From contig NZ_JABBNT010000001.1 in NCBI RefSeq assembly GCF_012926505.1, positions 372,001-436,000 on the forward strand: 64,000 nucleotides of DNA. The letters are read 5' to 3'. Under the pieces are notes generated by a model, which did not search any database, was not told the DNA's origin, and saw nothing but the letters and a program-made list of their open reading frames with translations. This document shows, one piece after another, positions 37,602 through 39,355 of this stretch. Each line of letters starts with the position of its first letter. Within the stretch, counting starts at the first letter, position 1. The stretch is from Pacificispira spongiicola (GTDB lineage Bacteria; Pseudomonadota; Alphaproteobacteria; UBA8366; Aestuariispiraceae). Both the position numbers and the translations under genes were made by a program.

Positions 37602-38285
37602 ATGTTCTTTATCAGCCGTAAGGACAAACTGACCCTGCCCAACCCCAAAGACGCCCTACCGGGCCGGGTGGAGGCCATGCGCGTCAATCCCCTGCACCAT
37701 CATTTGGGTACGCGGATCGTGGAACCCTTCCCCAACGGCAACGAAATGGCGCTGTTCGGCCTCGGCTGCTTCTGGGGGGCGGAACGCATGTTCTGGCGTA
37801 TTCCTGGCGTCTATGCGACGGCGGTCGGCTATGCCGGCGGATACACGCCCAATCCGACCTATGAAGAAGTATGCAGCGGCCTGACCGGCCATAACGAGGT
37901 CGTGCGGGTCGTCTTCGATCCCAGCCGCGTTTCTTATTCGGATTTGGTGAAGGCGTTTTTCGAAGGCCACGACCCGACGCAAGGCATGCAGCAAGGCAAC
38001 GATGTCGGTACGCAATACCGATCCAGCATCTACACTTACGATTCCGTGCAGCAGGAAACGGCGGAAGCCGTCGCACGCGTCTACGGCAAGGCGCTTCAGG
38101 CACGCGGACGCGGGCCGATCACGACGGAAATCGTTGCCGCGCCGGACTTCTACTACGCGGAAGATTACCATCAAGGCTATCTGTCGAAGAATCCGGGCGG
38201 CTATTGCGGCCTCGGCGGGACCGGCGTGACCTGCCCCGCTATTCCGACGCGGGCGGCTCCGGCACAGCAGGGGGCGGCGGAGTAA
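37602..38285 (+). CDS. msrA: Peptide methionine sulfoxide reductase MsrA
   Basis: A 227-residue enzyme that repairs methionine-S-sulfoxide. It has the active site [13 protein letters not shown] (Cys of GCFWG), [38 protein letters not shown] and [13 protein letters not shown]-terminal Cys pair in [10 protein letters not shown] may act as resolving cysteines. The Met at 37602 has AAAGGA 8 bases upstream; the frame extends to 37539 but those residues are not family-like. Its last 47 bases overlap the convergent XRE gene. Confidence 0.96.
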
Positions 38286-38517
38286 CCGGCGGCATATCGT
38301 CCTCCGCCCGTTTCGGCGGTCCGTGGTAATCCCGGAATCCGGCGTTATACGCCGCGCAGGCCAGACGCACGGTCAGGGGGATGTCGACTTCCTTTCCGTC
38401 GCGTTCCCCTTTTTCGTAATACTGCACCACCCGGCGTTTCAGGCCGAGCACATGGGCCGCATCCTTTTGCGAAAGGTCATGCGCCTTGCGCCATCGTTTG
38501 AAATCAGACGGTTTCAC
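38239..38517 (-). CDS. Small XRE/Cro-type DNA-binding protein
   Basis: A 92-residue protein. Residues about 5-45 are a helix-turn-helix of XRE type: [34 protein letters not shown], shown by the LSQKDAAxxLGL and VQYYEKG elements. The tail is Pro/Glu-rich and probably disordered. Translation appears to begin at a GTG (38517) with GGGA about 9 bases upstream. It is divergent from a small unknown gene, and three identical palindromes lie between them. It is therefore the obvious candidate to bind those sites and to regulate itself and the neighbour. Confidence 0.82.
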
Positions 38518-38574
38518 CGTGTCGTCCCATCACTGCCCACCCGAGATACGATCGGAATCCCATCAGATCGCAAA

Positions 38575-38651
38575 GCGCACGATGTGCGCAGATTTTCCTT
38601 GAACTGCGCACCAAGTGCGCCTATCTATTATCAAAGGCGCACGACGTGCGC
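38575..38651. promoter_or_regulatory. Three identical palindromic operators at 31-bp spacing, with promoter
   Basis: GCGCAC-N3-GTGCGC occurs perfectly at 38575-38589, 38606-38620 and 38637-38651; the starts are exactly 31 bp apart, about three helical turns. On the plus strand TTGAAC (38599-38604), a 17-base spacer and TATCTA (38622-38627) form a good promoter, and the middle palindrome fills its spacer. The block lies between the divergent XRE gene and the small gene at 38730. Confidence 0.85.
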
Positions 38652-38729
38652 AACCTTTAACGAATTGGTCGATGCCGCGCGGCACGTGATCCCCACAAAA
38701 TGACGCGGCTAGCCCATTGGAGGATGGCC

Positions 38730-38969
38730 ATGACATTACTGTATGTTGGCGAGAAACACGCCTACCGGGATGAAGTATCGATCGCCCGCGCCGAATCGGC
38801 GCAGGTCGCGGTCGCCGCGCCGCGCGCGCAAACCCTGGATTGGGCCGCGAAGCTGCTGTTCCGCGTCACTTGGGATGGCGGACAGATTTATACGACGGAT
38901 TCGATCGAGGTTACGAAACTCGTCGACCGGCATCCCAGCTGCGACGTAAAGGTGATTTCCGTCGTCTGA
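38730..38969 (+). CDS. Hypothetical small protein under XRE control
   Basis: A 79-residue protein I do not recognise. It is mixed alpha-beta with no signal peptide or membrane segment: MTLLYVGEKHAYRDEV at the start, LLFRVTWDGGQIYTTDSIEV in the middle, and CDVKVISVV at the end. GGAGG ends 7 bases before the ATG at 38730, so I prefer it to the ATGs at 38700 and 38724. A well-formed promoter with an operator in its spacer lies about 100 bases upstream, and a strong terminator follows, so this is a tightly regulated single-gene unit. It could be a toxin-like or stress protein, but nothing in the sequence shows that. Confidence 0.6.
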   Translation: MTLLYVGEKHAYRDEVSIARAESAQVAVAAPRAQTLDWAAKLLFRVTWDGGQIYTTDSIEVTKLVDRHPSCDVKVISVV

Positions 38970-38984
38970 TACCGACGGCAAAAG

Positions 38985-39026
38985 AAAAAGGCCGGGCCGC
39001 GTATTCCGCTGGCCCGGCCTTTCTTA
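38985..39026 (+). terminator. Bidirectional rho-independent terminator
   Basis: A perfect 12-bp stem AAAGGCCGGGCC / GGCCCGGCCTTT (38987-38998 and 39011-39022), followed by CTTATTT on the plus strand and CTTTTGCC on the minus strand. It lies between the convergent genes at 38730-38969 and 39038-39355. Confidence 0.88.
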
Positions 39027-39037
39027 TTTCTGGGCAA

Positions 39038-39355
39038 TCAAGCGAAGACGTTGACCACGGATCCCCGACGCGGCGCATTTCCGCCGTTACGTTCCTGGGC
39101 GGCACGCGCATCGGACTGCGCATCGCGCGGCAAGTCGCGGCGGCTGGTACCCGCGCGACCGGAATCATCGGTGTTAGCGGCCGTAACGGCCAGTTGGCTT
39201 TGCGGCGCCTGAGCATTTTGCTGGCGCGCCGTGTCCTGAACGACCTGCGATTGATCGCGCTGCGTGGCGTCGCGACGGTCCTGTACCGTCTGGCGTTGCG
39301 ACGCGGTCAGTTGCGCGGTCAGCAGTGCGTTTGCATCGGTGTTGGTAATGTTCAC
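39038..39355 (-). CDS. Hypothetical Gln/Arg/Asp-rich small protein
   Basis: A 105-residue, strongly polar protein, rich in Gln, Arg, Asp and Ala and probably disordered for most of its length. It ends with RRGSVVNVFA; short C-terminal motifs of the form RGSxVxxxA recur in small alphaproteobacterial proteins, but I cannot name a family. There is no signal peptide. It is followed by a strong terminator and preceded by an AT-rich gap, so it looks like an independent transcription unit. Real coding is supported by its isolated position and good start context (GAGGTTGTTGTGAAC region), but not proven. Confidence 0.6.
   Translation of the reverse strand: MNITNTDANALLTAQLTASQRQTVQDRRDATQRDQSQVVQDTARQQNAQAPQSQLAVTAANTDDSGRAGTSRRDLPRDAQSDARAAQERNGGNAPRRGSVVNVFA

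Follow-up and report, generated by a model that had tools for sequence, protein, structure and literature searches.

A candidate XRE-controlled operator region with three tandem palindromes beside a small protein gene in Pacificispira spongiicola

Described repressor systems and the P. spongiicola locus

The CI-Cro immunity regions of phages lambda and P22 possess divergent genes, three operators and a repressor acting at a core promoter. A comparable arrangement is found in the stretch of DNA analysed here, 64,000 nucleotides of Pacificispira spongiicola (contig NZ_JABBNT010000001.1, positions 372,001 to 436,000; hereafter the window), in which three perfect 15-bp palindromes lie between the gene of a 92-residue XRE-family regulator (hereafter XRE) and that of a 79-residue protein. 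Like those immunity regions, the locus has divergent genes, three predicted operators and a putative repressor at a core promoter; it differs from them in that the partner protein has no helix-turn-helix (HTH) match, the spacing is different and there is no phage context. It is read here, with a probability of approximately 0.77, as an autogenous repressor module that would work like the anti-CRISPR-associated (Aca) repressors.

Reporter data on the Aca repressors, as given in the cited account, place their inverted repeats within core promoters, sometimes in twos (PMC9410906). The present locus resembles the Aca1, Aca2 and Aca10 systems in having, by sequence, an inverted repeat placed within the core promoter from which the controlled gene would be transcribed, a feature also of 31 of the 46 site-bearing loci described below. 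However, the aca and acr genes of that account share an operon on mobile elements (PMC9410906), whereas the genes here are divergent, chromosomal and syntenic in the family. In addition, none of the partners here is a known anti-CRISPR, the small protein having neither a PADLOC nor a PHROG match.

The controller (C) proteins of restriction-modification systems, C.Esp1396I, C.AhdI and C.Kpn2I, as far as their sources describe them, also work in a manner similar to that proposed for this module (PMC3758141, PMC3115060, PMC6237814), examples being the three operators and strong cooperativity of C.Esp1396I (PMC3758141) and the roadblock of C.Kpn2I (PMC6237814). In the description of Esp1396I, OL and OR share one 35-bp operator, whereas the sites here are 31-32 bp apart. 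Furthermore, no gene for a restriction enzyme was found next to XRE among the window neighbours scanned with Pfam, namely msrA, a TPR/SAM methyltransferase-like protein, UbiD and a sugar-dehydrogenase-like protein.

XRE itself is predicted by its model to consist of an HTH core of approximately 65 residues and a proline-rich tail, with no sensor domain seen in the protein. It scores 29.9 bits with HTH_3, against a curated cut-off of 23. Its best fold matches include Aca2 and Aca10, alongside NE0471 and the HTH domains of antitoxins; function cannot be read from a common HTH fold. In the NE0471 type (PDB 2auw), unlike in XRE, the HTH is a segment of a larger protein without known function. Because the operon and context features of Aca and C proteins were looked for at the locus and not found, XRE is assigned to neither group. 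The chromosomal divergent layout and the changing small gene around a kept, predicted control region make the locus distinct from both.

The palindromes, their conservation and the promoter around them

The first-pass annotation had reported three perfect palindromes at an exact 31-bp spacing between the two genes, and these are present with start-to-start distances of 31 and 31 bp (Table 1). It had also proposed a genome scan for further copies; in the 4.2-Mb genome perfect GCGCAC-N3-GTGCGC occurs at these three places only, with no scatter elsewhere, and a single occurrence was found for a reversed control pattern. Under a first-order Markov model of the window, approximately 1.7 perfect copies would be expected in 4.2 Mb and 0.026 in 64 kb. 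When one mismatch is allowed there are 27 places genome-wide compared to 22 for the control pattern, and with up to two mismatches nine were seen in the window against 11.9 expected, which is no enrichment. As these tolerant counts are close to the control or to expectation, it is only the perfect cluster that stands out.

The conservation of the sites was surveyed at loci gathered by XRE protein similarity alone, with a site defined as having no more than two mismatches and those with more left uncounted. Eight duplicates (L049, L055, L057, L061, L065, L098, L105, L110) were dropped, as were L068 (wrong frame) and L111 (start not found). This left 66 upstream regions, of which 65 are distinct (L019 and L063, both site-less, are on the same contig). 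At least one site was present in 46 of these regions, at least two in 36 and at least three in 19, while 20 had none, including L033 for which just 77 bp were available for inspection. A first set of 52 loci, an undercount with some loci mis-oriented, gave 33, 23 and 10 sites with zero, one and two mismatches, as against 0, 0.19 and 1.95 in base-shuffled copies. The sites accompany XRE whatever the divergent gene, with the family of the 79-residue protein at 23 of the 66 loci, every one of which has sites, and other genes at 23 further site-bearing loci. In all six genomes examined of the genus to which the window belongs, the locus has three perfect sites spaced 31-33 bp.

Among 58 neighbouring pairs, the start-to-start spacing was 31 bp in 17, 32 in 16, 30 in five, 34 in five and 33 in four; thus 47 fall within 30-34 bp, with the other 11 scattered between 21 and 195. 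The exact spacing of 31 bp is a trait of this genome, and a distance of approximately three helical turns is what is conserved, in agreement with the earlier suggestion that the sites lie on roughly the same face of the helix.

The alignment of 104 sites shows an inner GCAC...GTGC which is nearly invariant, three free central bases and an outermost G which is often replaced by A. Alternatively, the palindromes might not be bound by a protein but act as RNA hairpins, in attenuation or as a processing signal. Each could form a 6-bp stem and the region folds better than shuffled copies (z -4.57). However, compensatory changes are almost absent, with 66 changes in the arms being one-sided and three two-sided; O1 and O2 are upstream of the predicted start site and the spacing tracks the promoter, leaving the hairpin explanation with very little probability. 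As the arm changes are nearly all one-sided, the pattern fits the recognition of DNA by a dimeric protein, not an RNA stem.

More distant relatives of XRE with different recognition helices have shifted sites, for example ACGCA-N5-TGCGT in L115 and L034. Relatives with such altered helices are found in L115 and L116 (both from 1.4-Mb genomes), L034, L035 and L114, and pairs of altered helix and altered site offer a chance to map recognition-helix residues onto bases.

The promoter of the small gene is less evident from the window itself. O2 does lie in its 17-bp spacer as previously claimed, but calling that promoter well formed was generous, as its TTGAAC/TATCTA elements match the consensus at seven of 12 positions and a consensus scan of the region with a threshold of 9/12 found none. 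It is the related loci which rescue it. If a site counts as promoter-embedded when it falls entirely between -35 and -10 boxes separated by 16-19 bp, the strand running away from the XRE gene has such a site at the 31 of 46 site-bearing loci mentioned above, while shuffled flanks gave a mean of 1.88 and a maximum of five in 100 trials.

Proposed repression by XRE and the points against it

These features support the view of the first-pass annotation that a control region separates the genes for XRE and the 79-residue protein, and XRE is the likely binder and repressor, because the sites are conserved upstream of its relatives and embedded in the divergent promoters. Repression, autoregulation, cooperativity and the role of XRE as the binder are all inferred from sequence. 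An XRE dimer would sit on each palindrome and contact the GCAC/GTGC half-sites. XRE bound at O2 would occupy the gap between the -35 and -10 boxes and exclude RNA polymerase from the promoter of the 79-residue gene, with O3, near the transcription start, potentially serving as a second block. Through O1, on the side of the region towards its gene, XRE would probably limit its own synthesis, and with the sites on approximately one face of the helix, neighbouring dimers could assist each other. Since XRE has no visible sensor domain, repression seems more likely to be released through a protein partner or a change in the amount of XRE than through a small ligand.

The link between sites and XRE was also followed at genome level. 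XRE relatives are found in 30 of 385 alphaproteobacterial genomes, belonging to 17 of the sampled families, while tandem perfect pairs of sites are found in seven of the 385, six of these being XRE-positive (Fisher p approximately 1e-6, a value that is overstated as three of the genomes represent one genus). In four genomes (G000, G002, G005 and G070) the paired sites are at the XRE locus. Promoter-embedded sites occur in seven of 381 genomes, six of them XRE-positive, compared to one for the control pattern; this set is the 385 minus four genomes, one of which is XRE-positive (G419), and retaining 30 positives in the statistic changes it negligibly.

A number of observations weigh against the proposed module. 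Twenty of the 66 XRE loci are site-less, several having the same recognition helix (L013, L015, L019, L023). The site pairs of G106 and G418 lie away from XRE, while G163 (paired) and G153 (promoter-embedded) have sites and no XRE match, exceptions which could be due to chance or incompleteness. In G163 a frame which by eye is glycosyltransferase-like overlaps the pair with its 3′ end. Single perfect sites are present in 54 of 144 relatives, 38 of which have no XRE match, and so only tandem or promoter-embedded sites can be considered informative. Finally, on the XRE strand a promoter encloses a site at just five of the 46 loci, barely over chance (mean 1.65, maximum 5). Because of this, autoregulation is weakly supported, and a site inside the XRE promoter does not appear to be a general rule; the clearest XRE-directed promoters to enclose one are those of L058, L064 and L029, and the XRE promoter in the window is uncertain. 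A fourth perfect site was observed in G007 (C31:27730, L054), 65 bp or about two periods from the third and within a promoter aimed at XRE.

The site-less loci, together with the sites lacking an adjoining XRE in G106, G418 and G153, would also fit a different explanation, in which the sites belong to another DNA-binding protein and XRE merely happens to adjoin them. Against this, the sites stay with XRE when the divergent gene changes, and six of the seven genomes with paired sites have XRE, which makes another binder improbable. In G106 (68% complete) three sites are found at the small gene without an adjacent XRE, with XRE being on another contig which is site-less; this arrangement is consistent with XRE acting in trans.

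Partner genes and genomic setting

The 79-residue gene is a real protein-coding gene under purifying selection. Between G003 and G005 the synonymous difference (pS) is 0.227 and the nonsynonymous difference (pN) 0.011, and between the window and its relatives pS is 0.68-0.84 (nearly saturated) and pN 0.17-0.23. The AlphaFold2 model of the protein has a mean predicted local distance difference test (pLDDT) score of 93.2 and a predicted template modelling (pTM) score of 0.77, with the order beta-alpha-alpha-beta-beta-beta-alpha-beta. No convincing family or fold match was found for it in the libraries searched, including Pfam, NCBIfam, PHROGs and PADLOC, and none of 21 family members scanned in Pfam matched an HTH model. 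A profile of the family detected it in nine of the 385 genomes, all XRE-positive and eight with the gene directly divergent from XRE; a single-protein search found it in 12 of the 144 relatives, all within the 21 with XRE. The small gene looks like a one-gene transcript, because it has its own ribosome-binding site and a strong terminator (Table 1).

Table 1. Coordinates of genes and predicted control elements at the locus (positions in the window)
Feature	Position	Strand	Sequence, basis or remarks
XRE-family regulator, 92 residues, GTG start	38239..38517	-	HTH_3 E 5.8e-7; model mean pLDDT 91; relatives in 30/385 class genomes
Weak candidate -35 TTGCGA for XRE gene	38568..38573	-	18 bp from GTATCT at 38544-38549; read by eye; uncertain
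Predicted operator O1	38575..38589		GCGCAC-N3-GTGCGC; nearest XRE gene
-35 box TTGAAC, small-gene promoter	38599..38604	+	sequence; such promoter around site in 31/46 loci
Predicted operator O2	38606..38620		GCGCAC-N3-GTGCGC; within 17-bp spacer of small-gene promoter
-10 box TATCTA, small-gene promoter	38622..38627	+	sequence; such promoter around site in 31/46 loci
Predicted operator O3	38637..38651		GCGCAC-N3-GTGCGC; at or just 3′ of expected transcription start (start placed from -10 box)
Ribosome-binding site GGAGG	38719..38723	+	sequence
79-residue protein, function not assigned	38730..38969	+	conserved family; low pN relative to pS; model mean pLDDT 93
Intrinsic terminator of small gene	38990..39029	+	stem 38990-39019, then T-rich tail; fold -30.5 kcal/mol, z -5.65

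Other partners facing similar control regions are a basic family of approximately 50 residues at seven loci and another family at three. The models of these partner families were built mostly from the loci that they scored, a circularity that affects the grouping of the shortest frames; scores free of it are those of L007 and L051 (79-residue family), L108 (50-residue family) and L017 (third family). With this in mind, the control region appears to stay alike across families while the adjoining tiny gene differs. NUDIX-like genes (by eye; L034, L035, L114) adjoin the genes of more distant XRE relatives, where sites are altered or cannot be recognised, and a pyruvate-kinase-like gene (by eye) is next to the single-site locus L032. 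Off the XRE locus, G418 has at C1:86183-86228 (L121) a pair with a promoter-embedded site before a 134-residue frame, which is probably a second controlled gene. In G153 (81% complete), where XRE was not found, C376:3012-3036 (L137) has a promoter-embedded site 5′ of frames of 76 and 54 residues, the second of which resembles by eye the basic family of approximately 50 residues seen beside XRE elsewhere.

The locus appears to be part of the core chromosome beside msrA in both genus and family, and the chromosomal setting previously proposed is thereby supported. The order methyltransferase-like gene, msrA, XRE, small gene, 105-residue frame and sugar-dehydrogenase-like gene is kept in five other genomes examined of the genus, and five additional genomes from the family also have msrA adjoining XRE, among them Marivibrio halodurans (Aestuariispiraceae; L005). 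UbiD comes next in the longer stretches L004, L005 and L030. XRE and msrA are tail-to-tail with an overlap of 47 bp (38239-38285), while the 105-residue frame (39038-39355) is glutamine-rich and conserved within the genus, with two copies in L004 (1542 and 2184). XRE is single-copy in this genome, as are its relatives in all XRE-positive genomes except G419, which has two (C1:1138967 and C1:1059636) in 2.6 Mb. No XRE relative was found on plasmids in 72,556 records at E 1e-5.

The first-pass annotation had also likened the region to phage or toxin-antitoxin control, a flavour at odds with the divergent genes, the single-copy XRE, its msrA synteny and the lack of plasmid or close viral relatives in the searches made. 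A type II pair, with XRE as antitoxin and the 79-residue protein as toxin, is unlikely given that the genes are not in one operon and that a promoter and a terminator of its own are predicted for the small gene. In addition, the small protein has no PADLOC match, XRE persists without it (30 genomes compared to nine of the 385), and the XRE model is one HTH domain plus a tail with no separate toxin-binding domain. The resemblance to CI and Cro could likewise suggest a relic of a phage immunity switch, but the small protein is without an HTH match, the neighbours are housekeeping-like and in conserved order, and vertical descent across families is seen in part. Moreover, none of 113 stretches of viral contigs with the peptide pattern encodes an XRE relative, a single-protein query that reaches close relatives only and that distant ones could escape; the six viral stretches in which paired sites were found resemble, by eye, repetitive or coding DNA. 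A phage relic is thus considered quite improbable.

For the repressor module itself, a broader reading may tentatively be put forward, at somewhat less than even odds, that it represents an undescribed alphaproteobacterial cassette that retains its regulator, operator sequence and promoter geometry while the tiny controlled gene has been replaced several times, the alternatives being the family of about 80 residues without a clear fold match, the basic family of approximately 50 residues and others. If true, this would be a chromosomal counterpart of an Aca repressor with its changing acr genes and would provide a handle on several families of small proteins. What seemed an isolated oddity becomes a testable regulon, as the paired or promoter-embedded operator is specific enough for whole-genome searches and also points to other small genes, such as those of G418 and G153. 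The 79-residue partner has a confident model, strong constraint and no known family, and removal of its putative repressor would therefore be a direct route to learning when and why small proteins of this kind are made.
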